Shown here: positions 5,758-34,451 of the stretch, one piece after another
Layout: each line of letters begins with the position of its first letter
Numbering within the stretch: the stretch's first letter is position 1
Source of the DNA: Clostridiales bacterium
Lineage (GTDB): Bacteria > Bacillota > DSM-16504 > Desulfitibacterales > JAICDB01
Assembly: GCA_020063565.1 (NCBI GenBank)
Contig: JAICDB010000007.1
Location: 62,001-126,000 of the forward strand
Direction of reading: 5' to 3'
DNA length: 64,000 bases
Position numbers and translations under genes: made by a program
The notes under the pieces: model-generated
Database searches by the model: none
What the model was told of the DNA's origin: nothing
The model's input: the letters and a program-made list of their open reading frames with translations, nothing else

Positions 5758-6000
5758 TTATCCCGCTTTTTTGATAAAGGCAGTATACGTCCCATCTTCA
5801 TTCTCAATTACTTTGATTACCTGCGCTCCTTCCTCTTTGAAGCTGCGCGGAACATTTTGTAATGGTTCTCCTGCTTTCATTCTTATCTCCAAAATCTGTC
5901 CTTCGGAAAGTCTTGCCATGGCCACCTTGGCTTTGGCAAATGTGGTAGGACATACAACATCCGTAATATCTACAAAAGCATCAGCCTTGATGTCATTCAC
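5758..6000 (-). CDS. TusA-family sulfurtransferase
   Basis: This 80-aa protein has the TusA/SirA fold signature: DITDVVCPTTFAKAKV places the sulfur-carrying Cys at residue 17, followed by Pro 18, and a later half with the usual conserved glycine and proline. TusA proteins pass persulfide sulfur between enzymes, in tRNA thiolation or in dissimilatory sulfur metabolism. The GTG start at 6000 overlaps the end of the siroheme reductase gene by 8 bp, so translation is coupled. Being fused in an operon with a sulfite-reductase-like protein and a ThiF/MoeB enzyme points to handling of reduced sulfur rather than tRNA modification. Confidence 0.88.
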   Translation of the reverse strand: MNDIKADAFVDITDVVCPTTFAKAKVAMARLSEGQILEIRMKAGEPLQNVPRSFKEEGAQVIKVIENEDGTYTAFIKKAG

Positions 6001-6862
6001 TCTCCAGCACCTCTTTCAAATATTTTTGCAGCTGTGAATTTCCTACCCTTTGCAAAATATCTGCGAATCGTTCTTCGTTATTTCCATAATCGGCTATAAA
6101 CTTTAGAGTATGTTCAATAACACTTAACACTTTTTCCTCTTTATAAATTACCGGCACCACTTGCTTCCCTCGCGTTATTACATTCCCATTCCGGCCACCA
6201 AAGAGCAGCAAATAACCTTCCCTACCCTTCCAGGCATCGGAAGAACATGAAGTTACGCACCTGCCACATTTTATGCATTTTTGAGGATTAAAAATCACAT
6301 CTCTATTTTCATAATTAATTTTAATTGCATCTACAGGGCAAATCGCTTCACATAAGCCACAGAAAATACAGTTAGCTTGTAACCATTCAGGTTCCATACA
6401 GCCTTTTATTCCCAAATCATTTTCTTCTGCTTTAAGGCAGTTGTTAAGGCAGCCGCTGATGGAAATTTTAAATTTACACTTTAAATCCCTTCCGAAAAAT
6501 TTCTCGTCAATTTTTTTAGAAAATTCTTTTGTCTCAATTAAACCGTTGGGGCAAATTTTACAACCTTGGCAGGCTGTTACAGTTCGTACCCTAGGACCGC
6601 ATGCCCCGGGCTCCAGTCCCACCTGTGCAAGTTTATTTTTTATAGTTTCAAAATCCTGCAATTTTATAAAAGGTATTTCTACACCCTGCCGAGCAGTTAA
6701 ATGAATTTCTCCATTACCAAAATCCTTTGAAACCTGTGCAATCATCTGAAGTTGGTTAAAAGTCAACTGACCTCCAACAATATGAAGCCTTAAGGAAAAA
6801 AACTCCTTCTGAACCTGTTTTAATAACCCTCCTTTTTTGAGTTGCTGCAAGTCCACGCCCAC
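5993..6862 (-). CDS. Siroheme/[4Fe-4S] sulfite (or nitrite) reductase-like protein with inserted ferredoxin domain
   Basis: The 289-aa protein has an N-terminal ferredoxin-like half domain (residues 1-60, ending LTARQGVE). Siroheme-cluster ligands follow: C98/C104 and the CX3C pair C138/C142. Then comes a two-cluster ferredoxin insert with CX2CX2CX3C sets at 165-175 and 196-206. This matches small single-subunit anaerobic sulfite reductases (AsrC-like, or the C-terminal part of Fsr). The six-electron reduction of sulfite to sulfide is the likely reaction, but nitrite cannot be excluded. The GTG start follows GGAGG. It is followed by tusA (8-bp overlap) and preceded by moeB 30 bp away. Confidence 0.82.
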   Translation of the reverse strand: MGVDLQQLKKGGLLKQVQKEFFSLRLHIVGGQLTFNQLQMIAQVSKDFGNGEIHLTARQGVEIPFIKLQDFETIKNKLAQVGLEPGACGPRVRTVTACQGCKICPNGLIETKEFSKKIDEKFFGRDLKCKFKISISGCLNNCLKAEENDLGIKGCMEPEWLQANCIFCGLCEAICPVDAIKINYENRDVIFNPQKCIKCGRCVTSCSSDAWKGREGYLLLFGGRNGNVITRGKQVVPVIYKEEKVLSVIEHTLKFIADYGNNEERFADILQRVGNSQLQKYLKEVLESE

Positions 6863-23591: not shown

Positions 23592-23762
23592 TTATTTCAA
23601 TTGTTAGCTGTTTTTATTACCTAGTACTAAAATAAATTATAACTAATTCACCAGCTTCTGTCAATAGATTGCATATATGTATACAAAATACGTTTCACGC
23701 ATATTTTTTCCTATTATAGAAATACTATCTAAAATAGAACACCTCTATAGGGAATGGTAATT

Positions 23763-25373
23763 ATGCTGCGTTTCTTAGCCAAGAAATTACATTTTTTACA
23801 GTTACTTAGCCAAAATAGCGAAGATAAACAGGAATCTAAATCACGGGAATCATCTCAAACCAGTCTTTCTCGTGATATAACACAAAACCTGAAAGTTCTT
23901 AAAGATATTTTAGGCCCAAGTAATGATATCAATATCCGCGAGTTCAGCTTCGGATATGAGGAGAAAGTAGATGCAGCCATTATTTTTGTAGATGGCATGG
24001 TGGAAAAAACTACAATAAATGAAAGTATCATCAAGCCTTTAATGTATGACAGCCACCTCTTTACTCCCAAAGAATCACAGACCATTACAACCAGTATTGA
24101 TCTGATCCAGAGGTCAATGATTTCCGTTGGGGATGTAAAAAAAGTCGACTCTTTTGATGAGCTAGTTGATGACTGTTTATACGGAGATACTGTTTTGTTA
24201 ATTGACGGTTCCCACGAGGCTCTGGTTATTAGTACCAAGGGTTGGGAATCTCGCGGCGTACAGGAACCGAAAACCGAAGCTGTTGTCAGGGGGCCCCGTG
24301 AAGGCTTCACAGAGACTTTGCGCACCAACACAACCCTCTTACGACGTAAGATTAGGGACCCTAATTTTATCTTTGAATCAATGCAACTGGGTCAAAGAAC
24401 AAAAACTTCTGTTTGTTTAGCTTATATCAAAGGAATAGTCAACCCCAAACTTGTAGAAGAAGTTAGGCGCCGCCTAAAAAGGATAAAAACAGATGCCATC
24501 CTGGAATCAGGTTATATTGAAGAATTTATTGAAGATGCTCCTTTTTCTCCCTTTGCCACCGTTGCCAACAGCGAAAAACCCGATGTGATTGCAGCCAAAC
24601 TACTGGAAGGCAGGGTAGCCATCCTGGTTGACGGTACTCCCATGGTACTAACGGTACCAATGCTTTTTATCGAAAGTTTTCAATCAGCAGAAGACTATTA
24701 TTCCCGGCCTTATTATGCCAGTTTAATTAGAACGCTGCGATTTATTGCTTACACAATCACTATCCTGGCTCCGGCAGTATATGTAGCGCTAACCACATAC
24801 CACCAGGAGTCGATTCCTACCCCGCTGCTGATTACCATGGCGGCTGCAAGAGAAGGTACTCCTTTTCCTGCAATTGTTGAAGCACTTATGATGGGAACAA
24901 TTTATGAAATCCTGTGGGAAGCAGGTATACGCCTTCCCCGCCCGGTCGGCTCAGCAATAAGCATTGTGGGAGCTCTGGTCATCGGTGAGTCTGCCGTATC
25001 TGCCGGACTAATAGGCGCCCCAATGGTCATTGTGGTTGCTTTAACAGCTATTACTTCCTTTGTGGTTCCGGCCCAGTCCGACACGGCAACTATGCTGCGA
25101 TTTGTCCTTACTGTCTTTGCCTCAGTTCTGGGCGCCTTCGGGATTATGATTGTATTACTGGGAGTTTTAATTCACCTCTCAGCTTTAAGGTCCTTTGGAA
25201 CTCCCTACTTTTCACCTTTAGCGCCCTTAAGTCCCCGTGACTTGAAAGATGTCTTCGCCAGAGTCCCTTTGTGGGCCATGTTTACCCGTCCCAGAACCAT
25301 CGGCTGGCATGACCCGCAAAGGCAGGAATTCAGACTAGATCCCCACCCGCCCCCGGAAGAATCGGAAAAATAA
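23763..25373 (+). CDS. Spore germination protein, GerA/GerKA family (A subunit)
   Basis: The 536-aa membrane protein is the A subunit of a nutrient germinant receptor. Its hydrophilic N-terminal domain (to about residue 300) has family motifs such as GPREGFTETLRTNTTLLRRK. About five membrane helices follow (residues 320-480), then a cytoplasmic tail with APLSPRDLKD. The receptor sits in the inner spore membrane and triggers germination. The ATG at 23763 is preferred because the ATG at 23754 sits directly against its ribosome site. It is the first gene of a four-gene operon. Confidence 0.93.
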   Translation: MLRFLAKKLHFLQLLSQNSEDKQESKSRESSQTSLSRDITQNLKVLKDILGPSNDINIREFSFGYEEKVDAAIIFVDGMVEKTTINESIIKPLMYDSHLFTPKESQTITTSIDLIQRSMISVGDVKKVDSFDELVDDCLYGDTVLLIDGSHEALVISTKGWESRGVQEPKTEAVVRGPREGFTETLRTNTTLLRRKIRDPNFIFESMQLGQRTKTSVCLAYIKGIVNPKLVEEVRRRLKRIKTDAILESGYIEEFIEDAPFSPFATVANSEKPDVIAAKLLEGRVAILVDGTPMVLTVPMLFIESFQSAEDYYSRPYYASLIRTLRFIAYTITILAPAVYVALTTYHQESIPTPLLITMAAAREGTPFPAIVEALMMGTIYEILWEAGIRLPRPVGSAISIVGALVIGESAVSAGLIGAPMVIVVALTAITSFVVPAQSDTATMLRFVLTVFASVLGAFGIMIVLLGVLIHLSALRSFGTPYFSPLAPLSPRDLKDVFARVPLWAMFTRPRTIGWHDPQRQEFRLDPHPPPEESEK

Positions 25374-25396
25374 AGAAGTGTTGCGAGGTGCAATAT

Positions 25397-26566
25397 ATGC
25401 CAAAGCGTAGAAAAATACTATTTAAGTTAATAATTTTTATTATCTTCATTCTTAGTATAGCCGGCTGCTGGAACCGGCGGGAACTGGATACTCTGGCAAT
25501 TGTATTCGGTGTGGGAATAGATAAGGCTAAGAAACCGGGCAATATTGAGATAACAGCTCAGGTCATTAAACCGGGCGAGATGAAAAGTCCTCAAGGAGGC
25601 AGCGGTGGCGGCGGTGAAAAGCCTTACTGGAACCTGACCAGCAGCGGAAAAACTATTTTCAGTGCAGTTAGAGAATTTACTCATAAATCCAATCGTAAGC
25701 TGTATTTCCCACATAATGAAATTATTATCTTTAGCGAAGACATCGCTAAAGAAGGAATCAGAAAATATATGGATTTCTTTATCCGTGACCCTGAAATTCG
25801 CCGCCTAGTGTGGGTTCTGGTTGCCAAAGGTAATGCAAGTGAAGTTTTGGAAACAAAAGCGATTCTGGAAAAAGTACCGGCAAGAAATATCGCCCAGTTA
25901 ATTGAAGCCAGGGCTGCCACGTCTCAGGCAAGCGCCGTTAGGCTCCAGGAATTTTTAACTCGTTTGATGAGTAAAACCACTGCACCCATAGCCTCTGTTA
26001 TTGAAATTACGCGTGAGAAAAAAGAAAAAATAGCTCGCCTTATAGGAACAGCAGTATTTAAAGACGATAAATTGGTAGGTTATTTAAACAAGTCGGAAAC
26101 AAGAGGCCTTCTCTGGGTCATCGGTGAAGTAAAAAGCGGCATTATAGTGGTTAAATCTCCCGGTGGTAACGGTGAAGTAAGTTTGGAAATCATTTGCGCC
26201 AGCAGTAAAATTATTCCGGAAATAAAGGATAATAATATCCACATCAGGGTTGAAATCACTGAAGAAGGAAATCTGGGGGAGCAAACGTCCGCTGAAGACC
26301 TAACATCACTACCAGCATGGACAGTCCTGGAAAGACGCCAGTCCGAAGCCATCCACAATGAAGTAAGAAGAGCTTTGAAAAAAGCTCAGGAGCTGAACAC
26401 AGATATTTTTGCTTTTGGAGAAGCTGTCCATAGAAAATACCCTGAACTCTGGAAAGACATAGAAAATAGATGGGATGAGTATTTCCCAAATATTGAAGTA
26501 ACTATCAACGTAAATGCTAAATTGCGCAGGTCAGGCATGACAACAAAACCGCCAAAACCGGAATAG
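25397..26566 (+). CDS. Spore germination lipoprotein, Ger(x)C family (C subunit)
   Basis: The 389-aa protein has a lipobox signal (ILSIAGCWNRREL), and its mature sequence starts with the strongly conserved CWNRRELDTLAIVFGVGIDK. The rest follows the GerC domain pattern, with a Gly-rich insert (GGSGGGGEK) near residue 75. It is the lipid-anchored C subunit of the germinant receptor. The ATG at 25397 has GAGGTG 6 nt upstream. It follows the A-subunit gene by 23 bp. Confidence 0.92.
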   Translation: MPKRRKILFKLIIFIIFILSIAGCWNRRELDTLAIVFGVGIDKAKKPGNIEITAQVIKPGEMKSPQGGSGGGGEKPYWNLTSSGKTIFSAVREFTHKSNRKLYFPHNEIIIFSEDIAKEGIRKYMDFFIRDPEIRRLVWVLVAKGNASEVLETKAILEKVPARNIAQLIEARAATSQASAVRLQEFLTRLMSKTTAPIASVIEITREKKEKIARLIGTAVFKDDKLVGYLNKSETRGLLWVIGEVKSGIIVVKSPGGNGEVSLEIICASSKIIPEIKDNNIHIRVEITEEGNLGEQTSAEDLTSLPAWTVLERRQSEAIHNEVRRALKKAQELNTDIFAFGEAVHRKYPELWKDIENRWDEYFPNIEVTINVNAKLRRSGMTTKPPKPE

Positions 26567-26577
26567 GAGTTGTAGTT

Positions 26578-27663
26578 ATGAAGCTTGAAGGAGGCAAAAT
26601 ATCCAGTTCTCATTTAACTTTTTTAATGATTGGCTTTATGATAGGGTCCAGCTTAATCTTTATCCCCGGGCAAACCGCCGGGCATGATGCCTGGCTGGCA
26701 ATTTTGGCTGGACTGGCTGAAGGCCTGGTTTTTGCTGTTATTTATACGACTCTGGCCATGCGGTTTGCCGGTAAAACTTTAGTGCAATTCAATGACATCG
26801 TCTACGGCCCTTATCTGGGAAAGGCAATTTCCATTGCCTACCTGTGGTATTTTTTTCATCTGGCCAGCTTAGTTTTAAGAAGCTTTGGGGACTTTTTTAC
26901 AGCAATAATATTTCCGGAAACTCCCATGATTGTGTTTATAGTTCTAACTGCCTTAATCTGTGCTACGGCAGTACGAAACGGATTGGAAGTAATAACGAGA
27001 TGCGGTTTAATATTGGTAGTTACCATGTCTCTTGCAGTCTTAACTACAACAATTTTACTGTTTAAAGATATGAAGTTAACCAACTTTTTACCTGTTTTTG
27101 ACATTCCTTTAAAGGATTTTATCAAGGCCAGTCATTCTGCTGCAACCTTTCCCTTTGGCGAAACTGTAGCCTTTCTGATGGTTATTTGCTTTTTAGAAAA
27201 TGTCAAATTCGCAAAATCCTCCGCTATAAAGGCATTGATTATTACCGGTTTACTCTTGGTTATGGCTTCAGTACGAAGTATAGGCGTCCTGGGGGTTACT
27301 GCTCCCATCCATACCTATCCTTCCTTCCAGGCAGTACGCTTAATTAATATAGGAAACATATTAACCAGACTTGAAATCATAGTGGTCGGTAATCTATTAG
27401 CCATGGGATTTTTAAAGATTTCCGTTCTCTACTATGGAACGGTGCTGGGTACGGCGCAGCTTTTAAAACTGCGTTCCTACCTACCCCTGGTACTACCCAT
27501 TGGCGCCATGCTGGTAAGCTTTAGTATCCTGCAGTTTGACAGTGTAATAGAAAATATATTTTTTACCTTTGAGATCTACCCTTACTACGTTATTCCTTTT
27601 CAAATCGGGCTCCCTCTCCTTTCACTCATTATAGCTATTGTACGGGGACTACCCAAAGATTAG
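26578..27663 (+). CDS. Spore germination permease, GerB family (B subunit)
   Basis: The 361-aa protein has ten predicted membrane segments of the amino-acid-permease-like endospore germination family. Its opening is KISSSHLTFLMIGFMIGSS, with the typical GQTAGHDAW loop near residue 40. The B subunit forms the germinant-binding part of the receptor. Gene order A-C-B is common in clostridia. The start follows AGGAGTTGTAGTT. Confidence 0.92.
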   Translation: MKLEGGKISSSHLTFLMIGFMIGSSLIFIPGQTAGHDAWLAILAGLAEGLVFAVIYTTLAMRFAGKTLVQFNDIVYGPYLGKAISIAYLWYFFHLASLVLRSFGDFFTAIIFPETPMIVFIVLTALICATAVRNGLEVITRCGLILVVTMSLAVLTTTILLFKDMKLTNFLPVFDIPLKDFIKASHSAATFPFGETVAFLMVICFLENVKFAKSSAIKALIITGLLLVMASVRSIGVLGVTAPIHTYPSFQAVRLINIGNILTRLEIIVVGNLLAMGFLKISVLYYGTVLGTAQLLKLRSYLPLVLPIGAMLVSFSILQFDSVIENIFFTFEIYPYYVIPFQIGLPLLSLIIAIVRGLPKD

Positions 27664-27920: not shown

Positions 27921-28379
27921 TTATATTTTAAATGGATTGGGCCCAAATTCCTCAATTAGCGAAACATACTTCGCTAACCTTTCACTTAATATATTGCTTG
28001 GGTGGGTAAATTGTCTTGTGTATTTTACATTGCTAATAGCGAGCTCAATAATATCTATGCAATGCTTATCGGCAATGTCAGATTTTTCATATACCCAGGC
28101 ACATTGCTCTCTTATATTTGCAATCTCTACAGGTACATCAAAGAGTGCTTTTATCCTTCTTTCCATAACAAGTGGAGAACAGCCTGCGAATACTACAGGG
28201 TTTACGGAGTCACCAAAAGGAAGCACAAACTCCTTCGTATCCCTTATTTCATCACAAAAATTGCTATGAATAATTACCCGGTGTCCCTTTTTCTGAAAGT
28301 GTTTCTTTATCCCGGGCAAATCCATTTTATCCCCCAAGCATTCTTTATGACCACAAATCAAGATATTGACTTTCTGCAT
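27921..28379 (-). CDS. Stand-alone HdrA-like N-terminal domain protein
   Basis: The 152-aa protein resembles the N-terminal domain of heterodisulfide reductase HdrA without the flavin domain: VVFAGCSPLVMERRI, then VEIANIREQCAWVYE, parallel to the same stretches in its upstream neighbour. It holds a few cysteines but no CX2CX2CX3C ferredoxin motif. ATG at 28379 behind AAGGGGGA, 12 bp after the neighbour stop, last gene of the Apr-like operon. Its role is unknown; it may be a docking subunit. Confidence 0.6.
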   Translation of the reverse strand: MQKVNILICGHKECLGDKMDLPGIKKHFQKKGHRVIIHSNFCDEIRDTKEFVLPFGDSVNPVVFAGCSPLVMERRIKALFDVPVEIANIREQCAWVYEKSDIADKHCIDIIELAISNVKYTRQFTHPSNILSERLAKYVSLIEEFGPNPFKI

Positions 28380-28391
28380 TTTTAATCCCCC

Positions 28392-29579
28392 TTAACCAGC
28401 CAGAATGGAGTCTAGAGCCGCAAGGATTTTTTCATCACTCCAATTTGGCAACTCTATGGCTCCGGGCCTACAAACCCCCGCACAGTTGCCACAACCGCGA
28501 CAAGCACTGCTATAGACTTCATACTTACCGTCCGGAGATACTTGAATTGCTCCGTACGGGCAAACCTCCAGGCACTGTCCGCACCCGGTGCACCTTTCCT
28601 GAGCAATACCTGCCGGGGCCACAAAGCCTTCTCCAAGTGAGATGTAAGTCAATCTTTCTTTTTCCAAAAATTCCTCTTCCAAGCTCTGCTGACAGTTTTC
28701 AATTCTACATGTGGCAAGCTCATTTCCTTTCCTACGCTGGCACTGGCTGGCGTTACATCCCGCTACCAGTATTCCGTCCAATCCTTCCGCAATTGCATCA
28801 TTAACCATAATCATATTAACCGCACCTGTGCACGGTACTTTAATTATATATATATTGGGAGAATACTTTTCTCCTACCTGGCCCATTACATCCGCCTCTT
28901 CATAGGCAAATTCACAGAACATGCCTACTACAGCCGGAGAGTCCGCTTTGGCTACGGGCTTAAGCATGGCACTTATTTCCTCCAGCCTGAACTCGGGTAG
29001 GGAAATAACTCCAAGGGGGCAACCCCCGACGCAAATTCCACATTTCTGGCAGAGGTCGGGGTTAACCTGCGGGTAACCGTCCTTTTCCCGTAAACTAATT
29101 GCATTGTTAGGACACTCTTCAACACAGCGCTTACATTTATCACACTTGATTTCATTAATATGTGCGCAGTTAAGATTCCAGTTGCCTACATCCTTGGACT
29201 TGGCCACCCTGGCAACTCCCATTTTTAAAAGTATAACGGCCTTTTTGGTAGCGCTTTCGCTATCGTGGACCCAGGCACACTGTTCACGCAAATTAACAAC
29301 TTCCATATGCTGTTTTGGCATATGGAAGTCAGCGGCATAAACTTTAAAAATTGCCCCTTTAGCAAGCGGAGAGCAGGCCGCTACAACCAGCCTGTCAACT
29401 TCCTCTTGAGCTGCCAGCTCTGCAATTGCCTCTTTCCCCCGGGGACTGCAGGCCATGTTAACCTTAATTACTGCATGGACATTTTTATTTTTTGCTATTT
29501 TTTCACTCAGTGTATTGAAATCGATTGTACTGTCAATATGGGAGTTGCAGCGGCACAAAACTACTCCTACTTTGGACAA
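28392..29579 (-). CDS. Iron-sulfur protein: HdrA N-domain, ferredoxin, MvhD domain, ferredoxin
   Basis: The 395-aa protein has four parts. Residues 1-125 resemble the HdrA N-terminal domain (VVAACSPLAKGAIF, VVNLREQCAWVHD). Residues about 140-190 hold two 4Fe-4S motifs (CDKCKRCVEECP, CQKCGICVGGCP). Residues about 205-330 are an MvhD/FlpD-type domain (FCEFAYEEADVMG, CTGAVN, AGCNASQCQRRKGN). Residues about 340-380 hold two more clusters (CTGCGQCLEVCP, CRGCGNCAGVCR). The FAD domain of HdrA or QmoA/B is absent. It likely carries electrons to or from the AprA/AprB-like pair encoded just upstream (11 bp). TTG start behind AGGAGG. Confidence 0.82.
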   Translation of the reverse strand: MSKVGVVLCRCNSHIDSTIDFNTLSEKIAKNKNVHAVIKVNMACSPRGKEAIAELAAQEEVDRLVVAACSPLAKGAIFKVYAADFHMPKQHMEVVNLREQCAWVHDSESATKKAVILLKMGVARVAKSKDVGNWNLNCAHINEIKCDKCKRCVEECPNNAISLREKDGYPQVNPDLCQKCGICVGGCPLGVISLPEFRLEEISAMLKPVAKADSPAVVGMFCEFAYEEADVMGQVGEKYSPNIYIIKVPCTGAVNMIMVNDAIAEGLDGILVAGCNASQCQRRKGNELATCRIENCQQSLEEEFLEKERLTYISLGEGFVAPAGIAQERCTGCGQCLEVCPYGAIQVSPDGKYEVYSSACRGCGNCAGVCRPGAIELPNWSDEKILAALDSILAG

Positions 29580-31711: not shown

Positions 31712-31835
31712 AATTAATTTTTCCCCTCGCCTTCATTAAGATATTTAACTAGTTTTATAAACATTTTAAATGCTTGTGTTGATTTTCACAGCTTGCTTCT
31801 TTACTAAATCGAGGTATTTTAAATTACATCAAAAA

Positions 31836-31851
31836 AGTCTTTCAGCCGACT
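31836..31851. promoter_or_regulatory. Candidate Crp/Fnr-type operator before the apr-like operon
   Basis: AGTC TTTCAGCC GACT, 16 bp, about 125 bp upstream of the aprA-like start. It has the same layout (GTC, 8 nt ending GCC, GAC) as the motifs at 33601 and 34436. Here flanking A and T runs extend it to a 9-bp inverted repeat, so it might also be a terminator. Confidence 0.5.
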
Positions 31852-31866
31852 TTTTTACAATTTAAA

Positions 31867-31899
31867 ATGAATCAAACACCTTTGGGGTGTTTGATTCAT
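31867..31899 (-). terminator. Terminator after the anion transporter gene
   Basis: Stem ATGAATCAAACACC / GGTGTTTGATTCAT with a short loop, followed by TTTT on the minus strand, 10 bp past the transporter stop. It separates the transporter from the apr-like genes, at least partly. Confidence 0.7.
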
Positions 31900-31908
31900 A
31901 CCTATTCT

Positions 31909-33384
31909 TTACTTCATTAACGGATAACCTATAATTGGTAACCAGATACTTAAAGTTATAATTGTATATAGATTGCAAATTATAGAGAGCGGAGCTCCAA
32001 ATTTGATAACCCTGCCCATGGACATACCTGATGCGCCCCACGCAATAAAGAACGCTGTGATAGACATTGGCAGGAAAAATGCATAACTCAAGGAATTTAC
32101 CGTGATTAAGGTAAAGGGTAAAACATTAAATCCTAATTCAGGAGCCATCTCCATCATGAGAGGAATAAACATGGCTCCCATGGCAGCAGCACTAACAATA
32201 CCTGCCCTCGCAACCTGGATACCGGCTACAATCAGTATAAGAATTACTATTGCCGGTAATCCAATCAATGAATCTTTTAATGGAGAAAGTATAAGGTCTA
32301 CCATCCATTCTACTGTACCTGACTTGTACAATGCTGTACCAAGGGAAACTGCCCCACCCAGTAAAATCCATACATCCCACATAATGTGAGGAGCAACTTC
32401 TTCAAATTTGATTTTGCCGAATGGTAAAAATACCAAGAAGATAAGTACTATAGCTACCATACCGGTACTGATATTGTGAAGGCTTTTTTCGGTAATCCAA
32501 AGGAAAAGAGCAATTCCCAGGGAAATTAATGCCCACTTTTCAGGCCAGGTCATTTTACCAAGTTCTTTTTTCATCCTGGGTAATTCTTCAGTAGCACCCG
32601 GAAGCTCAACCTTTCCAAGCTTAAAATACCAAATTGTGTAAAAATAAACTACAGGAAGGAGTCCCCATAATGGCAGATTAAGTTTTACCCAGTCCATCCA
32701 TGTAATGGTAATGCCTGCCTCTTCCAAAAATCCTGCCATGAGAATATTGGGAAAATGGGCAGTTAAGATCAAAAGGCTGGTAAAAAGAGGCATGAGGCCG
32801 CAAATAAGCAAGAACATTCCTTCATTAATTCTTTTCACTTCCGGCAGATGCTCCTTACCTTCGGTAAGTCCGCTAAAACCCTTTGCCAGAGGCAATAAGA
32901 GACCAGTTTCCGCAACCGTAGGCAAAAATCCGCTAATACAAAAATCCGCCGCAGATAAGCCCAAGAGAATTCTTGTTACCTTGACTGACCTGAACATATC
33001 GGTAATTCCGATGGCAATACGTTTGCCTAAAGGAGTAGCAACCATGATTCCCGCGAAGGTAAATGCTCCGATTGCCAGGAAGAATGCCTTACCTGTAAAA
33101 GCGGAAAATGCTTCCTTTACTTTCATATCAGTCAGTATGGTTATAAATAAGGGTGAAGCAAATCCCACTACAAAACGATTCAAACTTCCTGAAATCATGA
33201 CGATAATGAACCACAAAAATACACCTAATATTGACTGTGCCTGCGGGGATAATCCCGGGAGCTCGGGTGCAAAATGAAATCCTAACATCACTACAAAAGC
33301 TGCTATTAAACTGACAAACTTTTTGGCTTCCATTCCAAATATTTCTTGAGTGTTCTGAACTGCCGTCGACGTTTCAGTGTTCAA
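31909..33384 (-). CDS. DASS-family anion symporter (SLC13-like)
   Basis: The 491-aa protein has about 12 membrane segments and DASS signatures: LPTVAETGLLLPLAKGF in the first half, PLFTSLLILTAHFPNILMAGF, then GIVSAAAMGAMFIPLMMEM and LSYAFFLPMSITAFFIAWGAS in the second half. DASS proteins import dicarboxylates, citrate or sulfate with sodium. Next to an Apr-like operon, sulfate or an organosulfonate is a reasonable guess but not proven. A TTG start follows GGGGG. A candidate operator lies 217 bp upstream. Confidence 0.85.
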   Translation of the reverse strand: MNTETSTAVQNTQEIFGMEAKKFVSLIAAFVVMLGFHFAPELPGLSPQAQSILGVFLWFIIVMISGSLNRFVVGFASPLFITILTDMKVKEAFSAFTGKAFFLAIGAFTFAGIMVATPLGKRIAIGITDMFRSVKVTRILLGLSAADFCISGFLPTVAETGLLLPLAKGFSGLTEGKEHLPEVKRINEGMFLLICGLMPLFTSLLILTAHFPNILMAGFLEEAGITITWMDWVKLNLPLWGLLPVVYFYTIWYFKLGKVELPGATEELPRMKKELGKMTWPEKWALISLGIALFLWITEKSLHNISTGMVAIVLIFLVFLPFGKIKFEEVAPHIMWDVWILLGGAVSLGTALYKSGTVEWMVDLILSPLKDSLIGLPAIVILILIVAGIQVARAGIVSAAAMGAMFIPLMMEMAPELGFNVLPFTLITVNSLSYAFFLPMSITAFFIAWGASGMSMGRVIKFGAPLSIICNLYTIITLSIWLPIIGYPLMK

Positions 33385-33600
33385 GTCATAACCCCCTTTT
33401 TAAATTATTGCACGCTCCGTATCCCAGAAAGGTGACTGCCTTCAGTATAAACTACTTACCTCCTTTCTTTTAGCAGATAGACAGTCTTTGATAAATATTT
33501 TAGATATTATTGATTAAATTCATTTATATTTTATAGGAATGTACTAACATTCACAGTCATACGTTTTGCCGAGGTGCTGTCTTTTAATTTGCATTATAGC

Positions 33601-33616
33601 TGTCATTTAGCCGACT
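33601..33616. promoter_or_regulatory. Candidate Crp/Fnr-type operator before the transporter gene
   Basis: TGTC ATTTAGCC GACT, matching 12 of 16 bases of the site upstream of the Crp/Fnr gene itself. It lies between the regulator gene and the transporter gene, on the promoter side of the transporter. A weaker look-alike with a 3-nt insertion is at 33555-33573. Confidence 0.55.
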
Positions 33617-33645
33617 TATAGTAAAAAATTACCATGACATTTATT

Positions 33646-33678
33646 AAAAAAATACCCTTGATGCCAGGGTATTTTTTT
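33646..33678 (-). terminator. Terminator of the Crp/Fnr regulator gene
   Basis: AAAAAAATACCCT / AGGGTATTTTTTT with a 7-nt loop; T7 follows on both strands. The stem overlaps the regulator stop codon. Confidence 0.88.
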
Positions 33679-34345
33679 AATAGACCCTACTTTGAAGTTT
33701 TTTCCTATCCTGTAGTATAATCTTTTTATTTTTGACTATAATAGCCCCGTCTTCCTTGAATTCCTGCAGCGTTTGGGTAACGCTCTGCCTTGTTGAACCG
33801 ATTATGTTGGCTATATCCTTGTGAGTTAGTTTAATATCCAACATAATACCTTCCTTGCAAGGATAGCCGCATTGCTCCTGCATGTTTAATAGAAAGCTTG
33901 CCAGTCTTCCGGAGACGTTATAATTAATCAGATCATAAATAACTTCTTCTGCACGCCGTAATCTGTGGGACAATACTTTGTTAACTTTTATGGATAATGC
34001 CGGCGTTGACTTTAATATTTCCTTACAAACATCCTTTTTAACAGCCAGAAGAGAAGTTGTTTCCAGGGTCTGGGCAAAACATTTCCTGGGTTCTTCCATT
34101 AAAGCCTCTGCCAATCCAAAAAGTTCTCCCGGGTGCCGAATGGAAACTGTAATGGTCTGACCATCCTTGGTAAGACGGTAGATCTTCAGCCTTCCACGCT
34201 CTATGAAGTACACATAATCGGGGGAATCCCCGTTAGCAAAAACAATATGATCCTTTTGAAAGACTAGCGGCATTGCATATTCTCGAAAAATTTCCTCTTC
34301 CCGGGGATCCAGGCAAACAAAATATTTGTTGCAATCCCTACGCAA
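33677..34345 (-). CDS. Crp/Fnr-family transcription regulator
   Basis: This protein of about 222 aa has a cyclic-nucleotide-like sensor barrel (residues 20-120; ERGRLKIYRLTKDGQTITVSI, PGELFGLAEAL), a dimer helix, and a winged HTH (LTHKDIANIIGSTRQSVTQTL). Cysteines occur near the N-terminus (DCNKYFVC) and in QEQCGYPCKEG, which could be redox- or cluster-related, though not in the FNR pattern. The recognition helix STRQSVTQ differs from Crp (SRETVGR). TTG at 34345 with GGAGG 8 nt upstream. A motif resembling those before two neighbouring operons lies before its own gene, suggesting autoregulation and control of the Apr-like cluster. Confidence 0.88.
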   Translation of the reverse strand: MRRDCNKYFVCLDPREEEIFREYAMPLVFQKDHIVFANGDSPDYVYFIERGRLKIYRLTKDGQTITVSIRHPGELFGLAEALMEEPRKCFAQTLETTSLLAVKKDVCKEILKSTPALSIKVNKVLSHRLRRAEEVIYDLINYNVSGRLASFLLNMQEQCGYPCKEGIMLDIKLTHKDIANIIGSTRQSVTQTLQEFKEDGAIIVKNKKIILQDRKKLQSRVY

Positions 34346-34435
34346 AAAAATTACCTCCACTTTATAAATTAAAATTATTATAGATATCATTTCGATTTAT
34401 ATCGACTTTTTCCTGCATTCTTTAATTGTAAAAAG

Positions 34436-34451
34436 TGTCATCTTGCCGACA
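34436..34451. promoter_or_regulatory. Candidate autoregulatory Crp/Fnr-type operator
   Basis: TGTC ATCTTGCC GACA: outer TGTC/GACA arms with an 8-nt centre. It is about 90 bp upstream of the regulator start (34345) and 92 bp upstream of niaR on the other strand, so it could affect both divergent genes. Confidence 0.55.

Follow-up and report, generated by a model that had tools for sequence, protein, structure and literature searches.

Several regulators of the Crp/Fnr superfamily have operators or targets that resemble those of the locus described here. The CooA consensus is TGTCGGCNNGCCGACA in Desulfovibrio (PMC545781) and TGTC-N8-GACA in Calderihabitans maritimus, and Moorella stamsii has no known CO sensors (PMC7306483). 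Cmr of Mycobacterium tuberculosis has the operator TGTCAGCGTGCTGACA and is autoregulated (PMC5499769). HcpR has the site TTGTGA-N6-TCACAA and is predicted to repress sat and apsAB in Desulfovibrio (PMC545781). In the open-access literature we found no described regulator for the cluster considered here, in which a crp gene stands beside genes for an anion transporter and an AprAB-like enzyme.

We analysed a stretch of 64,000 nucleotides (the window) from a Clostridiales bacterium. Our main reading, to which we give a probability of roughly three in four, is that three 16-mers of the form WGTC-N8-GACW are operators of the Crp/Fnr protein encoded at this locus, which would activate the genes of the transporter and of the AprAB-like/Hdr-like enzyme.

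Three sites in a Crp/Fnr gene cluster

The genes are transcribed from the minus strand in the order crp, DASS transporter, aprA-like, aprB-like and two HdrA/FlpD-like genes (Table 1). Divergent from crp, on its upstream side, are a 3H/HTH_11 (niaR-like) gene and nad genes. Elsewhere in the window, translations at 23754-27663 read as gerA-type spore germination genes, which makes the organism a probable spore former, and an AsrC/Fsr-like sulfite reductase-type protein is encoded outside the cluster at 5993-6862.

The earlier note had reported 16-mers starting at 31836, 33601 and 34436, and its coordinates were exact: the window sequence there reads AGTCTTTCAGCCGACT, TGTCATTTAGCCGACT and TGTCATCTTGCCGACA, respectively. 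All three sites lie upstream of minus-strand genes, and in gene orientation they read AGTCGGCTGAAAGACT before aprA, AGTCGGCTAAATGACA before the transporter and TGTCGGCAAGATGACA before crp. The aprA site is the core of a 26-bp inverted repeat, AAAAAAGTC-N8-GACTTTTTT.

A genome-wide scan, which the same note had proposed, found the pattern WGTC-N5-GCC-GACW (WGTCNNNNNGCCGACW) confined to the locus rather than scattered: the 2.36 Mb assembly contains three exact matches, all of them the window sites and together spanning 2.6 kb, and the reversed-pattern control gave none. Since this pattern was derived from the same three sites, we put the weight on the evidence from relatives, which provide the independent test. 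The looser symmetric form WGTCRN6YGACW, from which the aprA site departs at position 5 only, occurs at 13 places in the genome. Ten of these are in open reading frames, one of them 3.4 kb from dsrA, and three are intergenic: upstream of the transporter, upstream of crp and, on another contig, upstream of cooF-cooS. A wider regulon in this genome was rejected, since every match beyond the cluster and cooFS sits inside a reading frame. In most genomes TGTCRN6YGACA was no more frequent than its reversed control, so consensus counting by itself does not define a regulon. With two mismatches allowed, the window holds 23 matches against 21.8 expected, which is chance level; the case for the sites is their exact form, their clustering and their conservation in relatives, not their frequency at two mismatches.

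Table 1. Genes, predicted operators and putative promoter elements of the cluster (window coordinates)
Feature	Position	Strand	Details
Crp/Fnr-family regulator, 222 aa	33677..34345	-	TTG start behind GTGGAGG; longest ORF to 34390
DASS / Na+:sulfate symporter family transporter, 491 aa	31909..33384	-	PF00939, E 4e-44
AprA-like flavoprotein, 590 aa	29939..31711	-	closest solved structure 8a8o, PAPS reductase alpha of M. thermolithotrophicus
AprB-like ferredoxin subunit, 106 aa	29591..29911	-	TIGR02060 E 1.5e-24, under its cut-off
HdrA/FlpD-type iron-sulfur protein	28392..29579	-	follows aprB-like
Small HdrA-like protein, cluster end	27921..28379	-	last gene of the cluster
Candidate autoregulatory operator	34436..34451	-	TGTCGGCAAGATGACA; between crp and divergent niaR-type gene
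Predicted operator, transporter	33601..33616	-	AGTCGGCTAAATGACA; centre -87.5 from TAAAAT; counterpart in 34/40 homologous gaps
Putative degenerate companion site	33578..33593	-	TGCAAATTAAAAGACA; 23 bp downstream of transporter site, -64.5; 6/8 consensus positions
Putative weak companion site	33555..33570	-	GGCAAAACGTATGACT; 46 bp downstream, ~-41.5; 4/8 positions, GAC right half kept
Putative -10 box TAAAAT, transporter promoter	33528..33533	-	site-to-box +83, equal in L093, L094 and aprA
Predicted operator, aprA-like gene	31836..31851	-	AGTCGGCTGAAAGACT; centre -87.5 from TAAAAT
Putative -10 box TAAAAT, aprA promoter	31763..31768	-	site-to-box +83

The cluster and its motif are conserved in Clostridia

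About 40 loci in Clostridia share one gene arrangement: crp, DASS transporter, aprA-like, aprB-like and often also hdr. Their hosts are Desulfosporosinus, Desulforamulus, Desulfoscipio, Desulfovirgula, Desulfofundulus, Moorella stamsii, Anaerospora, Acididesulfobacillus and other Clostridia. These relatives were reached by AprA alignment; a scan of named genomes with Crp as a single-protein query returned none. AprA-like proteins below about 58% identity had no adjoining crp, and many had an asrC-like neighbour. In G036 (L041 10487-10945) an in-frame deletion inside the transporter gene joins its start to its last residues and leaves 152 aa. In Desulfoscipio geothermicus (L072 1654-6523; also L092) the apr cluster has three crp paralogs in its neighbourhood, and several TGTC-N8-GACA sites lie between these paralogs.

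Comparison of the relatives' intergenic regions, another check suggested beforehand, recovered the motif. GTC-N8-GAC was present in 34 of 40 gaps between crp and the next gene, where it was by far the commonest of the 64 trinucleotide palindromes at N8. At other spacings GTC..GAC occurred in six loci at most among these 40 gaps and none was enriched; shuffled gaps contained GTC-N8-GAC in a mean of 1.1 loci (maximum 6).

The recognition helix of the window Crp reads GSTRQSVTQ. Where the helix has Arg-Gln, every locus has GTC-N8-GAC (29/29), against two of eight with Arg-Pro (Fisher 1.2e-5), a statistic weakened by the tree, which permits one origin of Arg-Pro, so that the eight loci are not eight independent events. 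Several Arg-Pro loci carry TGTAAGCAARATAACA, TGTAAGCAAGATAACA, TGTAAGGAATATAACA or TGTTAGCTAACTTACA at the homologous place behind the crp terminator. This co-variation of motif and helix is supportive of the local Crp as the binder.

One relative, G228, bears the motif at further places; its gene names are our reading of translations. At L196 6329-6389 and 6418-7092, a paralogous Arg-Gln crp has a pair of TGTC-N8-GACA sites that stand 45 bp apart, in front of a DUF1847-like gene and a gene for a TauE/SafE-like exporter. The cluster of G228 has no hdr, and elsewhere in the genome an hdrC-hdrB-like pair has a TGTC-N8-GACA site (L197 5349) 583 bp upstream of it. These positions are consistent with a wider sulfur regulon.

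The local regulator and CooA

The window Crp is a member of the Crp/Fnr superfamily, with a cNMP-binding-type sensor (PF00027, E 1.4e-19) and a Crp-type helix-turn-helix (PF13545, E 3.3e-19). Assignments to described subfamilies were rejected in turn. As NtcA it reaches 102 bits in the curated model, with a cut-off of 245. FNR has four cysteines that bind an Fe-S cluster, with a conserved N-terminal set; the N-terminal cysteines of the window Crp are absent from close relatives such as L034, and the FNR operator TTGAT-N4-ATCAA is not the conserved signal, which is GTC-N8-GAC. Compared with M. tuberculosis Crp (3h3u), FGEL..PRTS is replaced by FGLA..PRKC with only the Arg kept, and two of the usual cAMP phosphate-binding residues (Glu and Ser/Thr) are missing. 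Neither the cAMP-type operator TGTGA-N6-TCACA nor the HcpR operator TTGTGA-N6-TCACAA (consensus from PMC545781) is the conserved signal of the crp-to-next-gene gaps. The half-site differs from those of Crp and Fnr, as the earlier note had observed, but it is not new, being of the published CooA (TGTC-N8-GACA; TGTCGGCNNGCCGACA) or Cmr (TGTCAGCGTGCTGACA) type.

The window sites conform to the CooA-type operator TGTC-N8-GACA, and a true CooA, which matches C. hydrogenoformans CooA-1 with E 2e-96, is encoded in the same genome at L189 3241-4059 (G000:C18), beside hydrogenase maturation genes. For these two reasons CooA needed testing as the owner of the sites. They could be operators of CooA, which senses CO through its heme, making the transporter and apr genes CO-responsive, or CooA and the local Crp could both bind them (cross-regulation). 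The published consensus matches (PMC7306483, PMC545781), and the GGC extension common to all three window sites agrees with that of Desulfovibrio CooA. A CooA-type site, TGTCAGCTAAATGACA, centred at -41.5 from a TATAAT before cooF-cooS (L191 6569-9091, G000:C13), differs from the transporter site at only two of 16 bases. The genome also has a second cooS and another Crp on contig 4 (L190).

The window Crp itself is not a CooA. It has Ala where CooA has the proximal heme His (PGD-x-x-S-x-H-T), a residue kept in the genome's own CooA and in the CooA of other cluster genomes. In the phylogeny nine CooA form a separate supported clade, and the cluster Crps form one other clade. Moreover, at least 11 genomes without CooA retain the site beside crp. 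It is kept without a recognisable CooA in G002, G003 (85% complete), G036, G228, G351, G387, G390, G401, G407, G408, G409 and Moorella stamsii, where absence means best matches of E 1e-13 to 1e-21, often to the cluster Crp itself, with no heme-His signature where checked; for L215, L216 and L218-L220 absence was judged by E-values only. As a general explanation, CooA as sole regulator was therefore rejected. The motif is also lost or altered together with the helix of the local Crp, and we consider ownership or co-ownership of the window sites by CooA unlikely. Taken together, the conservation of the motif, its co-variation with the helix and its retention in CooA-free genomes make the non-heme Crp/Fnr protein of the locus the most likely regulator to use these sites as operators.

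A broader generalization is possible though doubtful: Clostridia might possess a widespread, previously undescribed Crp/Fnr regulator of sulfur respiration that uses CooA-type operators in edge-to-edge 23-bp arrays, the operators being shared where CooA is present. If so, CO and sulfur-acceptor signals would be wired together at the DNA wherever both regulators occur.

Promoter geometry points to activation

Measured from a good -10 box, the strong sites of non-redundant loci are centred at -41.5, -63.5/-64.5, -87.5 or -110.5. This 23-bp register holds in 14-15 of 22 loci, most other shifts scoring 0-5. In the window both the transporter and the aprA site stand exactly at -87.5 from a TAAAAT box. 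Between a far-upstream strong site and its promoter, degenerate copies tend to recur at 22-23-bp steps, a signal of moderate strength (z ~2.9 for offset 22); G002 has TGTCATCCAGCTGACC and TGTCATGTAAATGACT at such steps, and in the window the transporter site is followed by TGCAAATTAAAAGACA and then GGCAAAACGTATGACT, both degenerate, at -64.5 and -41.5. The position -41.5 is that of class II activators of the Crp/Fnr family. The placement of strong sites in register with -10 boxes points to activation, which we infer would come from dimers bound next to each other, the one closest to the promoter at about -41.5.

The regulator could instead be a repressor, because the transporter site is followed after 2 bp by a TATAAT (33593-33598), which puts the centre of the site at -22.5, and a protein bound there would block RNA polymerase. 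Proteins of the CRP/FNR family can act in this way, as predicted for HcpR at Desulfovibrio sat and apsAB (PMC545781). This spacing is found in few loci only, whereas the relatives' strong sites at -41.5, -64.5, -87.5 and -110.5 have activator geometry, and we judge repression quite improbable. That short patterns close to an unrelated regulator are alike by chance, as the ordinary frequency of the two-mismatch pattern in the window and the scattered coding-region matches in the genome might suggest, is hardly credible against the clustering of the exact pattern, the 34 of 40 homologous gaps, the spacing specificity and the promoter phasing, and is already contradicted for the transporter site.

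The site before crp

The earlier note had also proposed that crp regulates itself. The site before crp does exist, but its centre is at -73.5 from the nearest TATAAT, off the 23-bp register, and it has no counterpart in relatives: none of those examined has TGTC..GACA upstream of crp, the only matches being two chance-looking ones (CGTC/GGTC) in L098. Autoregulation as a conserved feature was therefore rejected, and the case for it is weak because of this absence; at 34436 itself it is possible. The 16-mer there might also act on the niaR-like gene that diverges from crp.

The AprAB-like enzyme in sulfur metabolism

Among solved structures the AprA-like protein is matched best by the PAPS reductase alpha subunit 8a8o (E 3e-169); the dissimilatory AprA of A. 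fulgidus comes a long way behind. The curated models do not place the enzyme among the dissimilatory APS reductases, both subunits scoring under the cut-offs (AprA-like, 420 bits against 642 in TIGR02061; AprB-like, 86 against 136 in TIGR02060); AprA-like exceeds the cut-off only of the broader PRK06854 model. DsrA was above its curated cut-off in 14 of 14 cluster genomes tested, including the one studied here. ATP sulfurylase (PF01747) had no match in 11 of 21 cluster genomes, namely our own (G000, 81% complete) and ten others, several of them complete (G002, G003, G036, G351, G387, G390, G399, G401, G404 and G409), and was present in ten. All ATP-sulfurylase-negative genomes tested for DsrA, a set that did not include G409, were positive. 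With DsrA present and ATP sulfurylase absent, sulfate-derived APS may not be the substrate of the AprAB-like enzyme. In D. ruminis the APS reductase is Desru_3376-3377, described as single copy, and the genome paper does not count the cluster enzyme as an APS reductase (PMC3569383); the crp-transporter-apr cluster lies near 838 kb. Together with the distribution of DsrA and ATP sulfurylase, this separate reductase leads us to propose that the AprAB-like enzyme would yield sulfite from some sulfur oxyanion for DsrAB. As a guess, thiosulfate would suit the chemistry.

Discussion

The suggestion that the sites around crp form its regulon has gained from four computed results: the motif beside the cluster in most relatives, its co-variation with the recognition helix, its retention in CooA-free genomes and its promoter-phased positions. 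On this basis, a signal would act on the local non-heme Crp/Fnr protein, which belongs to a clade apart from CooA. A dimer of this protein, or more probably a row of dimers spaced by 23 bp, would bind ahead of both promoters, that of the transporter and that of aprA. Transcription would thereby be activated for the DASS anion transporter and for the AprAB-like/Hdr-like electron-transfer enzyme, the latter presumably feeding sulfite to DsrAB.

The half-site was already known as the CooA/Cmr type; three things are new, namely the conserved unit of regulator, cluster and operator, its 23-bp phasing relative to promoters and, within one genome, the overlap with CooA operators. The AprAB-like/Hdr/transporter cluster of DsrAB-bearing Clostridia thereby gains a specific and conserved candidate regulator and operator; the assignment predicts which genes should respond together and offers a handle on the substrate of the enzyme. 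In genomes of anaerobes, TGTC-N8-GACA should not be read by default as a CooA/CO site.

The HcpR regulon of Desulfovibrio (sat, apsAB, hcp) shares with the window the control of sulfur-respiration genes by a Crp/Fnr protein; the window differs in its TGTC-N8-GACA sites and in the probable activation of a different, AprAB-like paralog. Cmr is likewise a non-heme Crp/Fnr protein, but it belongs to another phylum and has other targets, and autoregulation of the kind suggested for the window is not conserved. The best match of the window Crp among solved structures and curated models is NtcA, the cyanobacterial nitrogen regulator (E 7e-28 and 3e-29), whose sites have the same N8 spacing class and read GTA-N8-TAC where those of the window read GTC-N8-GAC. 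The CooA regulon of R. rubrum, Desulfovibrio, Calderihabitans and Carboxydothermus has in common with the window TGTC-N8-GACA operators with TGTCGGC/TGTCAGC half-sites, a recognition helix that opens with Arg-Gln, and activator geometry. In contrast to CooA, the window Crp carries Ala in place of the heme His and falls in a separate clade; its linked cluster encodes a transporter and an AprAB-like enzyme, not CO dehydrogenase, and its strong sites stand at -87.5, whereas the cooF site of the same genome stands at -41.5.
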